Assembly (NCBI GenBank): GCA_021307315.1
Contig: JAJSPD010000013.1
Coordinates: 310,001-374,000 of the forward strand
Direction: 5' to 3'
Origin: Bisporella sp. PMI_857
Lineage: Eukaryota > Ascomycota > Leotiomycetes > Helotiales > Helotiaceae
Length of the DNA: 64,000 nt
A program made the translations under genes and the position numbers. A model generated the notes under the pieces. It was given only the letters and a program-made list of their open reading frames with translations, was not told the DNA's origin and did not search any database. Shown in pieces: positions 1 through 27,551 of this stretch (its first letter is position 1; each line of letters opens with the position of its first letter).

Positions 1-1805
1 CAGCTATAGTAGCATAGGTCTTAGGGATCAAGTACGGCTACTTACGATCATATACTGCAATACTTCCGCATCGTTGGACCCGAAGATAGACAATATTCTG
101 TATCTGGTAATGAGGTACAGTACAAGGCTACATAATTGGTACAACACCGATTAGGTCTAAACCAGATCTTCAAACACACTTGATACATCTTAGTATTTTT
201 ATACAAAGTTCGAATATTTCACTCATAAAAGGATTAGCAGGCGGATTTGAGATGTCGACGGTGTCAAGACCGCCTTCATGTTTCTATCGTTCAATGCCGG
301 TATTATGCCCTGGCAATTCATGGACCGCTATGCGAATGTCCCACGCATAATGTTCGCGCAATAGGCAACTTGTTGATTCAACGGGTCCTTCTTGGCCAGA
401 TCACTAGGTCGAGATCCGAAATGTAATTTCGGTTTGCAACCATAACATCTCGAAGCTACCTCTATTTCGCATGCGGTCTTAGTATGGCTTGTCAATAATA
501 TCATATGTGAGATACGAACTATCAGGTATATTTAGTAAGCTGATACCTAGGAACACGACGCTTGAGCAATGTACCAGCCTTTTTAACAGTGAGCCAGCTA
601 TCCACAATCGATCCAAGGAAGAGCATACTACGTATTGCTACGAATTACGGCGCCTGTAAGTTTCACGTTCAAGATATTGCATTCCAGCTCTATCGTTGAC
701 GTATTCAACGATCAGTAGCTCCATGATAAATTGGTCAGAGGTTGTCACCAACACAGAAAAGATTGTCGATTGCGTCTTTGTCAGCAAGTGCCACAGAACC
801 CTTAATTTGGCTTAGGCGCCAGCTAGATATCTGCTATTAAATAAAGCCAATCACGATTTTGACCAAAGGGAAAATGTCTTGAATCCACGAGGTTTGAGCT
901 TTGCTGAAGTACCCAATGTCAACTGTGGTAAAATGCACAATGTGTTCTCCCAGAAATTGCAGGGATCTTCTATTGATCCTGACTACTCCCTCCAGCATCC
1001 ATCTCTCTATTCTAAGTAGTTAATCCAATTTATGCCTTCCCCATCCGATCTTCATACGTTTGTTAATACAGAATCTGTCCCCATCTGTTGTTTCCCGTGG
1101 ATTCCAGCATCTTCCAACGTAACACCAGCAGTAGATGGCGGGGGCTTCAAATGCCGGGATATATGGAGTTTGAAACTCCCCAAAAGCCGAAATTGGCAAA
1201 TGCACAGCAAATCCCGTGAGAGCGGGTTACCGAAACTTCATAGTGCGGCTTAATGTCAAAAGCACAGTCAGTTCACGTGAATGTAATGCTTTTCATACTC
1301 CGCGTCCCTTTTTCAAGCATCGGTCTGGATTTGAATTTGTCAAACAACGAGCTGCATCACCACATGTTCGGCCCTAGCTAATCAGTAATGTAGTTGCTTG
1401 ATCTGAGATGTTCCGGGTTTGAGACTCGGGAACTGTTTTTCAAGGCAACTATCAGGTGGTGGACACATAATACTATGGGCATGTACTTCTCCACGCAGAG
1501 CAGCTACTTGTTTTCGGAGCGTTTGCAGCATTGTGCAATACCGAACGACCTCCGACAGGTAGGAGTGGAACGATTTTGAACAGAAAGGGTACTCCTGATC
1601 TGTGACATTATCCGGGCAGTTTGTAGACCGTGATAGTATCATTCTCCCTTTAATATTTGTTTGGAGAAAGAGAAGGGGGTATAGTATATAAGGTGAGAGG
1701 ACCTCATATCTCCCCCAACGTTCAGAGCACACAAAAATATTATCATTCATTCATATCACCAATTCCCCAAGTAACATATACAGATCTTTGATTAATTCAT
1801 CAATC
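1..1805. other. intergenic stretch, no gene recognised
   Basis: About 1.8 kb upstream of the cyanide hydratase gene. Only short overlapping open frames of 60-120 codons are present, with no domain signature or spliceable continuation that I can see. The last few hundred bases probably hold the promoter and 5' leader of the downstream gene, including an in-frame upstream ATG at 1788. Confidence 0.55.
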
Positions 1806-3087
1806 ATGCCAGCAACCATCAGAAAGTACAAGGCGGCCGCCGTCAACGCCGAGCCAGGATGGTTCAACCTTGAGCTGTCAACCCAGAAGACAATTCGATA
1901 TATCAACGAAGCTGGCAAAGCCGGCTGTAAGCTCATTGCCTTCCCAGAGCTTTGTAAGAAAAACCAAATAGGTTCCCAACGTTCATGCGTTTACAAGTCT
2001 AGGGATTCCTGGCTACCCATACTGGGCATGGAAAGTGACCTACCAAGAGAGTCTCCCATTGCTCAAAAAATACCGCGAAAACAGCCTCCCCTCCGACTCC
2101 GACGAGATGCGCCGCATTCGCGAAGCTGCACGCTCCAATAAGATTTTTGTTTCGCTTGGATATTCTGAGCTAGATCTCGCTAGTTTGTATACCACTCAGG
2201 TAATGATATCACCAACAGGCGATGTCATTAACCATCGCCGCAAGATCAGAGCCACTCACGTCGAGCGTCTCGTCTTTGGTGATGGAACCGGCGATACTAC
2301 CGAATCGGTTGTGGATACAGAGATCGGTCGTATTGGTCACTTGAACTGTTGGGAAAATATGAATCCGTTCTTGAAAGCCTATGCAGCCTCACTCGGGGAA
2401 CAGGTTCATGTTGCTGCTTGGCCATTGTACCCCGATGCTACGACTCTAAAGTACCCTGATCCGTACACCAATATTAGCGATGCCAACTCTGATGTAAGTA
2501 TTCCTTCAATCACTATTTGTCATGGATAATTGAACGATGGGAATAGATCGTCACTCCAGCGTATGCCATCGAGACAGGAACCTTCACTCTAGCTCCATTC
2601 CAAACCATATCCGCAGCCGGTATCAAGCTCAACACTCCTCCCGGAAAAGAGCTCGAGGATCCAAAGATCTATAATGGTAACAGCAGGATCTATGGACCGG
2701 ATGGGCAGAATCTCGTTGACCATCCAACAAAGGATTTCGAAGGGTTGCTCTTCGTCGATGTATGTGAACTCAAATGCACATATCATAAATTTGGATAAGC
2801 TAACGTTTATATTTTAGATTGATCTTGATGAAGCTCATCTGAGCAAAGCTTTAGCTGACTTTGTAAGCACTCCCACCCCCCTCCTCTAACAATGGGTCGT
2901 AGACTGACTTGAATAGGGCGGGCACTATATGCGGCCTGATTTGATCCGCCTCCTTGTTGATACGGATCGTAAGGACTTGATTGTGCGTGAGGATAAGCAC
3001 ACTGGAGGTATCAAAATTGTCAAGACTATTGACAGGACTGGGCTTTCTACCCCACTTGCTGATAGTGCTGCTGAAGAAAGCAAGTAG
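1806..3087 (+). CDS. cyanide hydratase / nitrilase-family C-N hydrolase
   Basis: Five exons (1806-1953, 2003-2493, 2547-2759, 2818-2862, 2917-3087) encode 355 aa. All four introns are 49-58 nt with GT-AG ends, and the phases add up. The product is a carbon-nitrogen hydrolase of the nitrilase superfamily. The expected catalytic triad is visible as Glu48 (FPEL), Lys130 (HRRKI) and Cys165 (LNCWEN). The stretch around the cysteine ([13 protein letters not shown], then [10 protein letters not shown]) and the later [15 protein letters not shown] match fungal cyanide hydratases, which convert HCN to formamide, better than plant-type nitrilases. Length fits that family. Cyanide hydratases form helical homo-oligomers and let fungi tolerate cyanogenic plants. 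An in-frame ATG at 1788 would add six residues; I prefer 1806 because the protein then starts like its relatives. A nitrilase with another nitrile substrate remains possible. Confidence 0.9.
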
Positions 3088-3480
3088 AATGCTTTGGGAT
3101 TCCCAAGAAGTGCCTGGTGAGAGAATACATCATATAGAAAGCGACACAAATATCATTCAAAGTCAACCTATTGCTTAAATACCACCATTGTATCATAGTA
3201 TTTTACTATTTATATAGTAACCATACAAAAAAGCTTCAATTTGACATTCATTTTAGGTATGGTATATGTGACATATTAACAAAAATTAACGTTTTTAGCT
3301 TGAACTTTAACCATCGTTTAACTAAGTTTAAAAAGCTTATTTGTTAGTATTGCTTTTGACTATTTTTATTTTTATATTTACATCTTTATTAACATCACCG
3401 ACTTCTCCCATATTAATTCTATGTAACCTTATTACCTATCTCCCTATCTGGGTGCAGTTTGTATTGTACAAAACTAAAGT
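3088..3480. other. AT-rich spacer
   Basis: The stretch after the cyanide hydratase stop is very AT-rich, especially 3180-3430, with runs of A and T and several short TTTAA-like motifs. I see no coding signal. It probably contains the 3' end of the upstream transcript. Confidence 0.5.
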
Positions 3481-3833
3481 AGTGGTGTTGTCGCCATAGC
3501 TGCAAAAGCCAACACTGCCCGTTTGTCTTTCTTCTTGATCCCCAAACCCGCGAATCCCGAGTTGGCACCGTTATCGAAGGCTTTCCTTGCGTTGATTAAT
3601 GGCACTATGACTTTTGGATATCATGCATATGGGCTAGTGGATACGGAGCATCCGCACAATACCCAGGGTAAAGCGCTCATGAGTGTGAACTTGACTAATG
3701 ACCATCCCATAGTTATCGGGTGGTGTTTGCATAAAATGAACAGGCTGCCTCCAAGGTGAAGGCGCAGTATATGTTCGGTTGCCTGATTGGTGGTCTGGAG
3801 GATGCCCTCGTTATGGAGGGGGTGAATCATTGA
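3481..3833 (+). pseudogene. broken coding remnant of unknown family
   Basis: An open frame without ATG runs from about 3481 to 3759 and reads like real protein (for example LSFFLIPKPANPELAPLSKA, then MTFGYHAYGLVDTEHPHNTQ). It ends at a stop, while a second plausible peptide (QAASKVKAQYMFGCLIGGLE and onward) continues in another frame from about 3742 to a stop at 3831-3833. The overlap of the two frames is too short to be an intron, so this looks like a frameshifted fragment. I do not recognise the family. The absence of a start codon and the frame change both argue for a relic, but an unrecognised spliced gene is not excluded. Confidence 0.35.
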
Positions 3834-4496
3834 GCTTGCAGCAGTGTCCGCAGGAGGCGCTACAATACGAAGAGATGCAAGCGATGTCTATTCTCGATGA
3901 GCTCAATTTACTCTTGCCTCAAAATTGGCCTGCTCCGATTTGCTCAACATTTAATGCAATTTGAGGTATCCAAAACTCTGCGGCTCATATCAAAACCCTC
4001 CCCGCACAATATAATCTTCCTCCATTTACAGTTAGCCTCCATCACCTCTTTCCCTTCCGCCCGTCTTTCTTCAGAATCGGCAATAAATTGTTACACAAGG
4101 ATAACAGATAATTATGCAGAGCTGTCTGAAAACATCAGCATTCAAGATTGAGGCTCCCTGAAAAATGGCTCCAGCAGGAGAGTAACGACTTTCGATTTGT
4201 GCCTACAAAATGGAGAATTTATGGCCAAAAAGTCTATTATCAGAGTGATCACCAATGACAGAATAAATCTGTAACCAGTTACCGGCCACTGTGAAAAGAA
4301 AGTATGAAATGGCAGTCTCCATCAAGATCTGCCACACATGATCAACGCGGGGCTTGCAACTTACCACTGCAAAAGGTCGATATTGATGGGATTCGTACTG
4401 TCAAGAAGGCTAGAAGTGGCCTCTTCTCATACTCTGAAATGCAAAATTAATCAAATAAAGCGCGGCAGTATATTAAATTGAGTAAGTCTTCTTCCA
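3834..4496. other. intergenic stretch
   Basis: Only short open frames without recognisable domains. It separates the remnant on the plus strand from the 3' end of the LanC-like gene on the minus strand and probably holds the 3' untranslated region of the latter. Confidence 0.5.
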
Positions 4497-5711
4497 TTAA
4501 GTATCCGAATAGCCCGGAAAGCCTTTAGCTTCAACATCATCTATATCAAAAGCCATCCACGCCCATGCTCTACCAGCACAGCCCCATTGTAACCCAAAAG
4601 GGTCATCAGTCTTGATGTATGTACCATCTTTGATTCCACTCTCTACTCTTTCCTCGGTTGACCAGGACATGAAATGCTCCCGATGGGGAGATTGCAACGC
4701 CAACGCATTCCCTGTAACTCCATGACAAAGATTTGGCTCTTTCTTCAGAATTCCTTGCTGCCAAATATTCTTCCTACCCAGATCGATCGCTTTATCAATT
4801 CTTTCCTGCAGCTCCGGAAAATGTGGTCTCAGCTTCAGCAACGAAAGCACCAACCCCGGACTTCCATGGCAGAACTGCACTAAGTCCGTGGGATCCGACA
4901 GCGCTGCCCTCACATACCAATTCCCGTCCTCTCTCTGGGCATCTAAGTGCCTTCCCAAGTCCCCTTCCAATCTTCCCGCACAATTCGGGTCACAAAGCAC
5001 GATCTGAGTAATAATCCCGATGCTCCCGTGAGCGGCACCGAGATAATTCACATCTCGGAACGTCCACGGCTGGTTCGCAAGGCAATGCTCGATAATCGGC
5101 TTCATAACCTCATCTAAGCCCGCTTTCTCCTCCGGGAGCCAGTGCCTCACGATTCTCAACAGCGCAAGTGTGCCTGCGCGGCCAGACAACCATTCGTTTT
5201 CCACGGCTGGGGCTTCGAGATTCGCGGCCTCGGCAGCATCTTTCAACCGCCGGACACTCGTCAGATCACCCGTCGCAATCGCATTTACGGTATTGTAAAC
5301 CATATACTCGTTCTTGACCCCAATGCCATTTCCCGCGACGGGGTGCGCATCGGATCCGCAATCCAGATATGCTAGACACCAATCTCTGGAGGCCGTCCCT
5401 TTGACGAGAAGATCGGGGTGCGTGTGAGAGAGCCAGAAGAAGAGGTAAGCGATTGCAGAGGGCCCAGTCCAGAGGCCCTGGGGTTTGGGTTTAAAGGTAT
5501 CTGTCCATGGTTTTCTTGGTGGATAGCATTCAACGATGGTGGTGAGACACTTGAGAAGCTCTTGGCGGGGATTTGGTAGGCTAGAGAAGGTCCCGTGAGT
5601 GGCTAGGTTAGGTAGATATTTCTTAGTCTTAGGCTCCGTGTTTGCCATTGCTTCGTAAAGAGTAACACATAACTGATTATGAGAGGCTTCGACACTTCTC
5701 ATTAAAATCAT
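4497..5711 (-). CDS. LanC-like (LANCL-type) protein
   Basis: A single uninterrupted frame of 404 aa starting at an ATG (5711-5709). It belongs to the lanthionine synthetase C-like family, an alpha/alpha toroid that binds zinc. Family signatures are visible: GAAHGSIG near residues 226-232, CHGSPG at 281-286 and LCHGVTGN at 328-334. The zinc ligands would be Cys281, Cys329 and His330. Eukaryotic LanC-like proteins add glutathione to dehydroamino acids in damaged proteins, as shown for mammalian LANCL, rather than making lantibiotics. No precursor peptide or LanB/LanM-type dehydratase gene is visible nearby, which fits that role. No signal peptide or membrane segment is seen, so it is probably cytosolic. 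The gene lies 461 bp from the HeLo gene on the same strand; I see no functional link. Confidence 0.88.
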   Translation of the reverse strand: MILMRSVEASHNQLCVTLYEAMANTEPKTKKYLPNLATHGTFSSLPNPRQELLKCLTTIVECYPPRKPWTDTFKPKPQGLWTGPSAIAYLFFWLSHTHPDLLVKGTASRDWCLAYLDCGSDAHPVAGNGIGVKNEYMVYNTVNAIATGDLTSVRRLKDAAEAANLEAPAVENEWLSGRAGTLALLRIVRHWLPEEKAGLDEVMKPIIEHCLANQPWTFRDVNYLGAAHGSIGIITQIVLCDPNCAGRLEGDLGRHLDAQREDGNWYVRAALSDPTDLVQFCHGSPGLVLSLLKLRPHFPELQERIDKAIDLGRKNIWQQGILKKEPNLCHGVTGNALALQSPHREHFMSWSTEERVESGIKDGTYIKTDDPFGLQWGCAGRAWAWMAFDIDDVEAKGFPGYSDT

Positions 5712-6172
5712 AGTCCATCAATGTTGCGGGTAAGATTAGTCACGCCACCTAACCTGAATAGCCGTAAATTTATGCGAAGCATTGGACGTAGCGATGGAAT
5801 TAGGAAATAATTTATTCAATTGGTATCCCTCACATTAATTAATGCTTATCAAAAGACTAATCATAGACCGAGAACTTCGCCATGCATCTGATTATATGCA
5901 TCACGTGATACATCACAAAGCCCATGTTTGAAGGTATACTTTCTAAGACTACAATGCTGCCGATTTCTGAAATACATAAGATTTCTTATTAAAGTACCTA
6001 GTCCAATCTCTTAAATGCATACTTGATTTGATACTAACAGGTACCCCTAAAAATGACCCGCACCACCCAATAATAGACGAAAGTGTCTCGGTATACAAAT
6101 GACAGAACGGTAGCCGATTCAATATTGATAGTGAAAATCGTCGACATATCAACTTTCAATCGACATCAAGAC
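5712..6172. other. AT-rich spacer between LanC-like and HeLo genes
   Basis: 461 bp that should hold the promoter of the LanC-like gene and the 3' untranslated region of the HeLo gene, both on the minus strand. No coding frame of note. Confidence 0.5.
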
Positions 6173-7653: not shown

Positions 7654-10600
7654 ATGGCGGCAATACCAGTTCGTTCTCGAGCAGGCCACAGATACGAGCA
7701 TATTCAGATAGAGGGGAACAACAACATTCTAGGTGATTATTACGCTAGTAAGTGCTTTCTCATCATCTGCTACATGGTAACCACATTAGTAGTAATTAGA
7801 ATTGCTAATACGGTATCTTTAAGATACTCCAACCCTGCGGGAGCGCCATGAAGAGAATCTACGTCAATTCTTCAGAGGCACTACAAATCCTCAGATTGAT
7901 CGGGAAGAGCTTTTAATCCTCAAAGATCATCGTGCGAATGGAACGTGTGAATGGATCAAAAGCCACAGCGACTTCCAGAGCTGGCGGAACGGAACCAACC
8001 AATCGCTCTTGTGGATCTTAGGGAGGCCAGGCAGGGGCAAGACTTTCCTAAGCATGTACATTGCTGAGACCATCAAAAATGTGACACGTGAAGCCAGCTC
8101 CCGAGGCCAAGAACATATAACTCTTGAGTTCTATTGCAACAACCGACATGAGTCACGAAACACCGCGGTTGGTATTGTGAAAGGCCTGATGTTCAATCTC
8201 TTGCGTCAAAGTAAATATGCAGTCGAGCATCTGCTAGAAGCCTTTGAAAGCTCCAAAGAAGCTGTGACTGAATTATCGAGATTCTGGAGTCTATGGACGA
8301 TATTCCGAAACATGTTAAACGATGAGAGGATAAGTCGGATATATTGCATTCTAGACGGTCTTGACGAATGTAATGACGATTCCTTTAGAGACGAGCTTGT
8401 GCGGCGTCTGAAAGGCGTAGCTTCAGAACGGAAGACGCCACAGGGAAACTGCAAGATCAGTATATTAGTCACCAGTCGTCATATGGCAAGATCAGCCTCT
8501 GCCATTTTATGTTCAGGCTATTGCATCCAGTTAGATCAACATGAGGACAATAACGAGGTTGTCTCTGCACTGAACAAAGACTTGCAACAGTTGATCAACG
8601 TCAAAATGGACAGGTACTATCCAACGAGCTTATATCCAGATAAATTATGGAGAGCTAGTCTCGCCGAAGACTTACTTCGGCGATCAGAAGGGACGTTCCT
8701 TTGGATTGGATTTGCAATGGAGGTCATCAAAGACTTGAATCCTGACGAAATATCAGCTTCTCTGGATCAGCTACCTGGGGATCTACACAAGATGTATGCT
8801 CGAATTCTGGGCCAAATTCTTCCTCTGAGGAGGCCCATTGTGAAGTCAATCCTGCTTTGGGTGTCAGCAGCAGTTCGTCCACTTTCCTTGCTTGAACTGT
8901 ACGAGGCCACCGCATCAGAAAACTCCTCTCTGTCTTTCCAGAAAGCTACAACTTCCGACGACGACCAAGCTGTAAAACGGATGAACGAGTGGGTAGGCTT
9001 CTGTGCCAATTTACTAGTTATTGACAATGCGCAAACGGTGAATTTTGTTCACCAGTCTGTCAAAGACTATCTTTTCCGAGAGATAGACGACGACGGCGAC
9101 GGCGGCGATTACAATGATGGCATACACCCTTTTCGGGCTTCCACGAGCCTTGGAAATATTGCTCGGTCAAAAAAGCACGACATCGACTTATTCCGCTTTC
9201 GAAAGGCTGACGTACACTCCTTGATCGTAAGGGATTGTCTTTGCTATATTGAACAAAAATGGAAAGGCAATGAGGATCTCCATAGCGCGAACGCCACACA
9301 AGAACCTTACATAACTTCAGGGGTGCTGCGGGAGGCACCTATTATGTATTCAAGACTCGACCAAGCAGCCACGTTGAACCCGCTCCTCAGCTACGCCGTG
9401 CTTCATTGGCCTGACCACGCAAAACTAGCTGAAGATGAAGTCTACCACCTGATAATGCCCTTCTTGGCTGAGAAGTCAGGGAGTCGAGACTTCTGGCTGA
9501 GGGAATATGAACTTGTCAATGAGGGATGGGCAAACGACAGATGTGCGTTGAGCTTGAAAGTTGAGCTGGAGACCTGGAAATCAAACCCTTCGAATGCGGC
9601 TGACCCGGAACCTTTGAGTAATGCTCTACATATAGCTGCGAGAATTGGTTTGTTATCATTGGTGCGAAGGCTTTTGGAGAGAGACCGTCGAGGTCTTGAG
9701 GATCGACACAAATTGGTCGGTCGTATGAGATATCTCGAGACCAGGTCAAAGTGGGGGAACACTGCCCTGATGTTCGCCGCGAGATACGGACACTCCGAAG
9801 TGGTCCAGCTCCTCGTTGACAGCGGCGCTGACATTAATACCTCGAACAAATACGGCCTTACTCCTATCCTACTCGCCGGGTATGCGAATCAATTAGCCGT
9901 CATTGATCTGTTACTTAAGCACGGTTCTCAGATTGGGGTTCGGGTCACTACTAGATATGCCAAGAATGCTGGTCCAATTCTAGTGCAAGGATACGCAAAA
10001 ATTATCGAGCGTCTCTCCAGTACTGGACAAGATATCTCAGTTCATATGAAGGCAGGAAATGGCTATATTCCTCTTCTTGCCGCCTTCGAGAAGGGAGATT
10101 ACTCTTTAATCAAACTTTCACTCGAAAATGGAGCGAATCCCAACCAACTGAATGGTCGCGGGGATAGCGTTCTTTCGATTGCTGCCGCTGCCGAGAACCT
10201 GTCTTTAGTCCGTCTTCTTCTCGACTCGGATGCAGATGTCGAACTAAAAAATGACGCCGGGGAAACACCCTTGATCGTTGCATCAACACTCATGCCAACA
10301 TTGAGGAGAACAAGATGCATCGAAGCCTTAATAAATCATGGAGCAAATATCGAGGCGCGAGATAAAGGCGGCGATACGGCGCTAATTAAATGCGCTCGAA
10401 TCAGGTACCTTAGCAACATGAGAGAGCTAGTCGCTCGTGGAGCAGACATCGAAGCCCGTGACACAGAGGGCTCTACTGCTTTAATGATTTATCAGATAAG
10501 TCCCTATGGTGATGAGGATCATCATCGAATGTACATGGTCCAATTCCTCGTCCAAAAGCTTACAGAGTCTCGGAGGGGAAAGTTTGAGAAAGGCACTCTC

Positions 10601-10702
10601 AGCGACTCTGAGAGGAAGGAGCTGCTATCTGCGTATGATAAATTGAATAGCTTAGAAGCAATGACTGGTCGAAAGAAAACATCTTTACCGATATGGATGT
10701 AA
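7654..10702 (+). CDS. NLR: amyloid-type motif, NACHT domain, ankyrin repeats
   Basis: Two exons (7654-7747 and 7824-10702) encode 990 aa; the 76-nt intron starts GTAAGT. Exon 1 encodes only 31 residues and holds the motif YEHIQIEGNNNILGDYY (14-30), similar to the two tail repeats of the adjacent HeLo protein. A linker leads to a NACHT NTPase with Walker A GRPGRGKT at 98-105 and Walker B ILDGLDE at 207-213. Ankyrin repeats follow from about residue 630 to 930 (for example GNTALMFAARYGHSEVVQLL and GGDTALIKCARI). This is the sensor architecture of the NWD2/HET-S pair, with ankyrin instead of WD40 repeats: ligand sensing by the C-terminal repeats, NACHT oligomerisation, and clustering of the N-terminal motifs to seed the effector. 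The ligand is unknown. The C-terminal repeats are diverse rather than near-identical copies. Confident for domains, inferred for signalling. Confidence 0.9.
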
Positions 10703-24378: not shown

Positions 24379-26613
24379 TCAAAGCATACTTAAAGCCTGG
24401 ACCCTCTTATCTGCCAGCATATATAGCCTCTCCATTGGGATCTTCCCTCCACTCTTCATACTCAGCAACTGCGCGCTCTTAATGAGATTCTTGATCTCGC
24501 GTCCATTCAGCGTAAGCTGAGACAGCTTCTCCAAGCTTCCCTCATCCAGCTCGAATCTATCTCTACCAGCACGATCGATGAAATTCTCCCACACGGTGCG
24601 GCGGGCTGCTGGCGCGAGGTCATGGTAAGGCAGGAAGAGGTCAACGCGCGATTGAAAGGCATGGTCTATAGAGGAGATGCGGTTGGTGGTTAGGAATAGG
24701 ATGCCTTGGTAGTATTCAAGTTTGGTCAAGAAGATTGACACAAGCTCGTTCCTGGCAAGAGACTCATTGGTTCGAGCGCCAAGGAATACATCGGCTTCAT
24801 CAAGGAGGAGCATCGCGTTCCACATACGGCAGAGTTCCAAAGAGCGCTCCAAAGCCTTCTCAACTTCGGCAGGCTGGATACCGAGATCTCCAGCACTCAT
24901 GGAATAGAGTGGCACTCGAGAGCGCTCGGCGACAGCTTCGGCTGTGAAAGTCTTTCCTACACTATATTTTTTTATTAGCTTTAGTTATTGCAGAAAGTCC
25001 GTGACAGTTTTGATTATCAAGCAGAACATACCCAGGTGGCCCAAACATAAGGATGATCAATCCACGACCCTTGTCAGGAATGAAATCATCAAAGTCATTC
25101 TTCGATAGACTCTTATTTTCAACAAACGCCCAGGCAAGATCCTTCTCTCCCCCAGGAAGAACAAGCTTCTCAAACGCTTCATCGTTCCAGGTCATCTCCT
25201 TGAGATCATCGACGCGAAGTTCACACCAATCCTTAGACTTTAGATCAAAGCCTTTGAGCCATGGAGTGGCCATCATGCATTGCTCATCAGTAAGGAGTCG
25301 AAGATCCTCAGTCCGCTCTGCTGGACCTTTGGCAGCCGATGCAGTCTCTACAGGGGCGACAGAGAAGTTCGTCTCGTATGGCGTGTCCGACAATTCATCC
25401 TCTTCAGTCTCCTCACCAGTCTCTTCATCAACCTCTGGATATAGGGAGCGTAAGGTTGGCTTGACGATGTTGCAGCTTCGGTAGTATGCATAAGCATCAA
25501 CACAAACTTTGCCAGCCACGGGTCGTTGCTCAGGCTTCTCGGTCTCCAAGAGAACCTTTGTGCCATTGCTGATCATGAAATGATAGCCCCGGAGACGTTC
25601 AAACTTTCTGCCCCGTTCAATCATTGCGGTCTTGGTCTTTTCAGCGTCGCTCAAGAATGAGATGGGGAAAACAGGTAAAGCCGTCACCCGGCGGAAGCCT
25701 TCATACTCCCAGATGGTCAACTGAGTAGTCGCGTACCCAGTATTCTCACCATTCCAGTCAACATACTCCAGATCAATGACCCAACCTTCTGGGTTGCATC
25801 TATCTTCAGGTCGTTTCTTGTATTTCAAGACACGGCAGATCGTCTCGACGCCGAAGAACTTGGTAGATACGAGAGCACTAGGTGGAAAGATCTGCCACAC
25901 GTTCTGGAAGCTGACTTTGCCTGTCTTCTTAGTCTGAGCGAGGGAGAGGACTGATGAGGCAATGATTGGAGAAAGGAAAGCCAATAGGGCAGAAGCCGCG
26001 TTCTTCAGCAACCCTTCTTCAGCTTTGGCTTGGTACTCTTTCAATACATCCCAGCGATGAACCAGAGGCATGAACGGAGGCTCAATGGTCCATTGTTCAA
26101 GCTCCATATCTAAGTCTTGGTACTTATGCAAGACCTCTTTGAGAACCTTGCGCATTGACACATCATGGACCGTGATAGAGGTCGTAATCCAATGTTTGTT
26201 CTCATAGACATGACGATGGACAATGGGAACCAAAGCGCTTCTCTTGGCTAAGTCTGCTTCATCCTCATCAACAACGGCAAACTCGCTCCAGCGAGACTGG
26301 CATGACTGGTACTGGCACTTATGCTGATACCAGTTGCTGATAAGGTTGGACGAATAGCCAAATTTAGCCGCTTGATCTGCTCCATTGCTGTTCAGTGCTA
26401 GGGGGGTGATATCAACACCATCGAGAACTTGCACATGAGCTGCGTCCTCGTTAGTCTCTTCTTCAGATTCTGATGTTTCAGATTCGGCTTCCGAACTTTC
26501 CACACTCTCGTCGTATTCATCTTCGGTGCCTGAAGGAGATTAGTTGCTTGATCATTAAAGACCTCTGTTGAGGATGAAGTACTTTTTCTTGCCGTCTGCT
26601 TGGTTCGAGCCAT
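24379..26613 (-). CDS. AAA+ ATPase with a histone H3 tail copy at its N-terminus
   Basis: Three exons (26583-26613, 25032-26529, 24379-24961) encode 703 aa, and the phases close exactly. Exon 1 is only 31 nt. The protein starts Met-ARTKQTARKST, identical to mature histone H3 residues 1-11, followed by an acidic Ser/Glu/Asp-rich stretch to about residue 40. A middle region of about 420 aa resembles the conserved N-terminal region of fungal AAA proteins of unknown role (IHVR/VHRH, EYEGFR, EDELSDTPYE). The C-terminal ATPase has Walker A GPPGVGKT (about 507-514, split by intron 2), Walker B LLLDEADVFL (about 560) and a sensor-like LTTNR. It is of the single-ring type seen in ATAD-like proteins. 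Removal of Met before Ala would expose the same N-terminus as H3, with lysines at positions 4 and 9. A nuclear or chromatin role is inference; the ATPase call is firm. Confidence 0.9.
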
Positions 26614-27551
26614 TATGAAGAAGAGAGCTGGGCGAGATGAAGTATCGAGAATTTTGCAGCAATTAATGAAGGAAGAAGATCCGAGATGGCGAGTTATATT
26701 AGAGTAGAGGTCTACTAGACTAAATAAATAGAGATCACTTGCTACGGAGATCTATCTAAATATATGTCCACCAAATGAGACTTCATGCCTAAGGTTGCAC
26801 ACACCTGCCTAAATTTTGTTGGATCGCTAGCTAGGCAGAGGCAACATATGACTCACCCCATGATAAAGGAACGGTTTCTGATAGCCATTCCCTGCATGTT
26901 CTGGAGTGATTGCTGCCGGCGTTAGGCATCCGAACCGGGGTGGAGTAATTGTACGTACTTAAAGGCGAGATGAAACAAGTGTTGATAGGCCGTCTCGAAG
27001 TAGTACGATCTGATAGGTGTGGTCTCCCAATAGATTCTATGCCTTTGTCCTAGAGACTAGACTCGGAACGAATCATAAGATAATCATCTATCTCGTACCA
27101 AGGTGTATTTTTGTCATCTTAGCTTTGCATTTCATCAACCTTTCCTCCCTCCGCAGCATAGAGCCTGATAGTGCAAGAAATGCTCAAAGGATGAAAAGTA
27201 TGCGGTTTCTAATTTTCCCACATGTCAAAGAGCCTCGAAGGTCGGAAGGGGCTTCCTGTTTCTATATACCACATTCAGAGATAAAGGATTATCTCTTTAT
27301 ACAATACTTCAGTAAAGATAGTGCCAAGAAGGTTTCATGGCATCAGGATGGCGAAACTACACCAGGCAGCTTCCAAGCAATGAGATCTTCTCTCATATCA
27401 AATTCATCTACCTCTCGTGCGTTTCTAAATCCTGGTCGTCCCCTCTCCGAACTTCCTGAGCCTATAACAAACGTTAGCATTAATCCAGTGCAATTGACGA
27501 CGCCTCGTCGCGCAAAGTTTGCTGTTTACTCTCAAACCAGAGATCTACAGA
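26614..27551. other. intergenic stretch
   Basis: 938 bp between the AAA ATPase start and the stop of the NT-C2 gene. The left part should be the ATPase promoter. The 190-codon frame at 27017-27589 begins with GTG, overlaps the next gene antisense and has no domain; I treat it as accidental. Confidence 0.45.

Follow-up and report, generated by a model that had tools for sequence, protein, structure and literature searches.

We found that an AAA ATPase gene of the ascomycete Bisporella sp. PMI_857 starts with the N-terminal tail of histone H3, and that three further non-histone loci of the same genome carry H3 tails; the ATPase tail is best read as an H3 mimic. The gene lies at 26613..24379 on the minus strand of the 64,000-nucleotide stretch of DNA that was analysed (hereafter the window) and, with two predicted introns and three exons, encodes a conceptual protein of 703 residues with the N-terminus MARTKQTARKST-EDEYDES... 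(first residues MARTKQTARKSTEDEYDESVESSEAESETSESEEETNEDA; tail peptide ARTKQTARKSTEDEYDE). Residues 2-12 of this protein are identical to residues 1-11 (ARTKQTARKST) of H3, the reference being the H3 gene of the same genome; past T11 the sequence is acidic and bears no H3 likeness, with Asp or Glu at 15 of the 28 residues from 13 to 40. A preliminary description of this DNA had placed the gene at 24379..26613 and had reported the 11-residue match directly after the initiating Met, followed by a turn to acidic sequence; the conceptual translation agrees with all of this.

On the minus strand, exon 1 (26583..26613) holds the ATG, the codons of ARTKQTARK and the first base of codon S10, and encodes the putative H3-tail mimic. 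It is followed by a predicted phase 1 intron of 53 nt within codon S10 (26530..26582; GTACTT donor, branch-like CTAAT, TTCAG end), by exon 2 (25032..26529), which contains the rest of S10, T11, the acidic stretch, a DUF7025 domain and the first half of Walker A, by a second predicted intron of 70 nt within the Walker A loop (24962..25031; GTATGT...TAG), and by exon 3 (24379..24961), which carries the remaining AAA domain and the lid region up to the stop codon. Both introns were predicted from sequence alone. Of the GT dinucleotides downstream of the ATG, the GTACTT donor comes first, and its phase joins the frames; since it differs from the usual fungal consensus, intron 1 may sometimes be retained. 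Retention would yield a peptide of 71 residues (window 26398-26613, minus strand) with the same H3 tail, ST included, so that the match is kept in both the spliced and the unspliced form, as previously claimed.

Chance identity had been judged very unlikely, and three lines of evidence agree with this. Multiplying the residue frequencies along the 11-mer, as taken from the six frames of the window, gave 3e-14 per start. A 10-codon pattern run against 257 Gb of prokaryotic records gave nine matches, all in records of metagenome-assembled genomes (MAGs): seven were H3 genes (one cut by a contig end), presumably eukaryotic contamination, and two were short frames, of 28 and 19 residues before a stop codon; scaled to the genome of the window, this corresponds to about 0.0004 chance frames. 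In the 55.6-Mb genome itself, an eight-codon pattern was found at six places versus none for the reversed control, with about 0.003 expected under uniform composition. Judged by these sequence counts, a chance origin of the H3 match in the ATPase is excluded.

Apart from its tail, the protein resembles other fungal DUF7025-AAA ATPases in domains and motifs. Pfam placed DUF7025 (PF22942) at residues 208-303 (83.4 bits, cut-off 27) and AAA (PF00004) at residues 503-618 (67.8 bits, cut-off 21.2); AAA_lid_13, which often accompanies these domains and is not strictly defining, stayed below its cut-off (18.8 bits versus 27). The motifs GPPGVGKT, LLLDEADVF, LTTNR and SRVDL are intact, and we take them to be Walker A, Walker B, a sensor-1-like motif and an arginine-finger-like motif, respectively. 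No histone family was among the 11 Pfam matches up to E 1, indicating the lack of a histone fold, and Pfam found no chromatin domain. Solved structures, among the best 60 of 169 matches, align with the AAA part; they include AFG2, VCP-like and Vps4 proteins. The genome contains 27 DUF7025 matches, including that of the window and some that are fragments of one gene, and the closest paralogue has 48% identity over the AAA half. None of the other 26 matches showed an H3 tail in the frame holding DUF7025, a reading blind to any tail encoded by a first exon in a different frame; the genome-wide eight-codon pattern, however, revealed no uninterrupted MARTKQTA beside any other DUF7025 gene.

The six places of the eight-codon pattern correspond to the canonical H3 gene (C35:942693, minus strand), two copies of an H3-variant gene (C3:124397, minus strand, and C221:118957, plus strand) and three non-histone loci, one of which is the ATPase of the window. 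The second non-histone locus is a single-exon gene for an F-box protein of 348 residues (C135:209332, plus strand, in region C135:208000-212500), which starts MARTKQTARKSTGG (longer N-terminus, MARTKQTARKSTGGPAPRRRLAGS) and has an F-box domain at 26.9 bits against a cut-off of 20.5. Its 13 residues after Met are identical to H3 and retain the whole site of the H3K9 methyltransferase DIM-5 (R8-K9-S10-T11-G12); a search for relatives within the genome returned the protein itself alone. The third (C210:465972, minus strand, in region C210:463500-467000), for which the gene model is uncertain, starts MARTKQTARQTT (fuller start, MARTKQTARQTTKGV) and keeps the K4 side of the H3 tail with Gln in place of K9; two pieces of this locus gave no Pfam match. 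A fourth tail is internal to an 867-codon frame (C274:501080; frame 1279-3879 of region C274:498500-504500), in which a 31-residue stretch matches H3 2-30 with the changes K9I, K18R and L20I; its structure matches, among the best 60 of 144 in the PDB, were all H3-type chains aligned through the H3-like stretch. We had suspected this frame to be a reverse transcriptase, on the assumption that it resembled fungal rvt genes; it had no Pfam match and one NCBIfam match, to a group II intron reverse transcriptase at E 0.095 and far under the cut-off, and the identification is unproven. Among the four non-histone tails K9 is kept in two and replaced by Gln or Ile in the others, and all four have the core RTKQTAR, a sharing that owes something to the patterns used, which required the K4 core.

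To look for further tails we relied almost entirely on short patterns. The pattern TKQTAR occurred at nine places versus two for the reversed control, five of them being H3 and the four non-histone tails, and the other four lacking an H3-like continuation. Two of the latter, on C242 and at C243:242495, fall within frames that stay open for roughly 100 residues or more; that at C242:223480 (plus strand) reads TKQTARM, where Met stands in place of K9, and its frame, open for more than 100 residues, shows no further H3 likeness. A search allowing one mismatch gave 11 places versus five for the control, and its one-mismatch hits are not above noise. Five one-mismatch places were a UAA-type transporter start, two C-to-T mutated copies of the H3-variant gene and two chance frames. 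The transporter case (C124:571500-574500) has a gene start, MARTKQATPVRREP (MARTKQATP), just before the UAA-type domain in another frame, and the two seem to be joined; that an unrelated transporter seems to start in this way indicates that five-residue ARTKQ starts alone mean little.

A 41-residue query with H3 residues 1-40, open, unlike the patterns, to other parts of the tail, gave four matches in the genome, namely H3, the C274 frame, the F-box gene and one at E 1.1. It missed the 11-residue tail of the window ATPase and the C210 tail, so that our count of H3 tails is a lower bound. The equivalent H4-start query gave two matches, 98-100% identical and taken as the H4 genes, and in this one genome search no H4-tail copies were found outside them; short H4 copies could likewise escape, since the equivalent H3 search missed short tails, and this limits the control. 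From this comparison of H3 with H4 we rejected the idea that tail copying is common to all histones.

The tail does not appear to be a recent copy of the H3 gene. Over 12 codons the ATPase and its own genome's H3 gene differ at 10 of 36 bases, all 10 differences being synonymous, and their identity (26/36) equals that of random synonymous codons (mean 27.4, SD 1.9; fraction of random codings at or above 26, 0.84). The first intron of H3 (201 nt) lies in codon R8 and that of the ATPase in codon S10, both in phase 1, and no match longer than 15 bases or with E below 0.07 links the upstream sequences and introns of one gene to those of the other. Random-level codons, differing intron positions and short flank and intron matches led us to reject recent exon shuffling from H3; what they leave is convergence or else an old capture whose protein sequence has been under strong selection. 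A binomial figure of 9.5e-7 for the synonymous differences is biased, the case having been chosen for its protein identity, a choice that leaves the loss of synonymous similarity unaffected. Under convergence, the sequence would be maintained for a different role, for example as a basic nuclear localisation signal at the N-terminus or as an N-terminal-processing signal. The codons and intron position unlike those of H3 are as expected from this, although they fit an old capture equally, and the exact identity at 11 positions, including Q5, T6, A7, S10 and T11, far exceeds the needs of a basic signal, as do the 13 identical residues of the F-box tail; we therefore regard convergence as unlikely. 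It is more improbable still that the tail is a functionless fossil of a captured H3 5' exon. An early phase 1 intron does split both genes, as such a fossil might retain, but at different codons and with no longer matches around it, and ten synonymous changes with zero others are unlike neutral decay, even if the case was picked for protein identity.

A further alternative, also rather unlikely in our opinion, is that the tail acts as a decoy, occupying H3 writers or readers away from nucleosomes, or is modified to switch the ATPase; in that case the internal K9I tail of the C274 frame would belong to the same group and naturally inhibit K9 methylation. The Ile at K9 in that tail would suit such a role, and in Neurospora, according to the available text of PMC3248561, H3 K9L or K9R is semi-dominant, as if poisoning the methylation machinery. 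However, a single ATPase gene may yield too little protein to compete with H3, and the ATPase retains K9 and lacks G12. Finally, the unusual intron 1 donor might be taken to mean that translation begins elsewhere or that exon 1 is unused. We hold such a mis-annotation to be very improbable: the start codon has A at -3 and G at +4, its 5' flank (26614..26773, minus strand) is a CT-rich leader without any ATG, the closest upstream ATG begins 173 bases before it, and the second Met of the protein is residue 136, within a segment (residues of about 90-180) that by eye resembles paralogues such as L020.

Compared with these alternatives, we prefer the reading in which the ATPase N-terminus is an H3-tail mimic that serves readers and writers as a K4-side docking peptide, to which we would give about an even chance. 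Removal of the initiating Met is expected before Ala, and would leave the free end A1-R2-T3-K4-Q5-T6-A7-R8-K9-S10-T11, as in H3, presented as an exposed tail in front of the acidic stretch. Readers or writers of H3's K4 side, such as PHD-type proteins and the Set1 complex, would then most likely dock on the tail, and docking would bring these factors to the ATPase or the ATPase to chromatin complexes. We infer that the transcript is spliced, that Met is cleaved off, that the tail is exposed and bound and that the protein is nuclear, as well as which way the effect runs. The genome encodes H3 writers and readers, with one N-SET match, one DIM-5-like Pre-SET gene (C210:89150) and two HP1-like chromo-shadow matches (C219:268879 and C268:166779). 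In the portion of PMC5415848 available to us, free ARTKQTARKS binds the PHD fingers of human BAZ2A and BAZ2B in vitro (Kd 51 and 40, unit presumably micromolar), and ARAKQTARKS, with T3A, shows no binding to one of these fingers and a value of >5000 for the other. Since the free peptide binds PHD fingers and T3A nearly or wholly abolishes binding, the ATPase tail is long enough for K4-side readers of this kind.

For K9 the outlook is different. Neurospora DIM-5 requires R8-G12 of H3, and G12P abolishes its activity (PMC3248561, as far as available); in the ATPase the site R8-K9-S10-T11-G12 is incomplete, position 12 being Glu, a residue absent from the G12 substitutions in the part of that paper seen. 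Methylation of the ATPase at K9 by the fungus's DIM-5-like enzyme is therefore doubtful. Of the earlier proposal that the ATPase behaves like H3, the mimicry has been strengthened, by the three additional non-histone H3-tail loci, by the failure to find H4 copies in one search and by the loss of DNA-level similarity to H3 past that dictated by the peptide, whereas K9 methylation has become the weaker part, with Glu at G12 and K9 replaced in two of the four tails.

A terminal H3-like peptide outside histones is reportedly carried by the viral protein NS1; that peptide is C-terminal and shorter, whereas the ATPase tail is N-terminal, endogenous and fungal. In the cited papers, as far as their text was available, known mimicry consists of short H3-like motifs inside proteins. 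For example, G9a/GLP and their partners have H3K9-like motifs that are methylated and, for G9a/GLP, read by HP1; these comprise automethylation sites of G9a/GLP and candidate targets that are not histones (PMC9768651, PMC10611923). As in the ATPase, a brief stretch of H3 likeness sits in a protein other than a histone, but the G9a/GLP sites named there (K185, K239 and K205) are internal, while the ATPase has the whole tail 1-11, K4 included, at its N-terminus. Similarly, fission yeast Swi6/HP1 holds an auto-inhibitory H3-mimic sequence (PMC7192584, seen in part), providing a case of H3 mimicry in a fungal protein; that mimic, however, acts inside a heterochromatin protein, and the carrier here is an AAA ATPase without a Pfam chromatin domain. 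In a limited literature search we met no report of an AAA ATPase or F-box protein with a true H3 N-terminus, a negative result of weak weight.

The non-histone loci suggest that proteins outside chromatin may use the H3 tail as a docking or decoy tag. It is possible, though we put this forward tentatively and as something less than probable, that the ATPase, the F-box protein, the K9Q locus and the K9I frame, with their core RTKQTAR, form a class of H3-tail-tagged proteins, which would act as soluble surrogate H3 tails, docking onto or titrating the factors that read and write H3 and linking these factors to activities that include ATP-driven remodelling and ubiquitylation. If so, H3-tail signals in fungi would be read off non-histone proteins too, which would bear on antibody specificity, on which proteins are listed as targets of Set1 and DIM-5, and on the regulation of heterochromatin enzymes.

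A role of the ATPase in defence was considered and rejected, only weak AAA-only matches having been obtained. The AAA domain of the anti-phage ATPase IetA matched that of the window protein at E ~1e-7, but the score of 30.9 bits is far under the NCBIfam equivalog cut-off of 510, and no protease was found among the ten window frames scanned of the 28 frames of at least 180 codons listed. Searches for relatives of the ATPase found none in viral contigs; in plasmids they returned a single weak match, confined to the AAA domain. A LanC-like gene (4497-5717, minus strand) and a NACHT-ankyrin gene (7823-10702, plus strand) also lie in the window, at 14-22 kb from the ATPase.

The H3-variant gene mentioned above starts MARTKQTATKSARKPSAK... 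and continues with K-rich repeats and then histone-fold pieces. It is present in several copies, two of which (C14:8250 and C189:646645, both plus strand) look C-to-T mutated, as by RIP, the C14 copy being judged on its first 30 bases.
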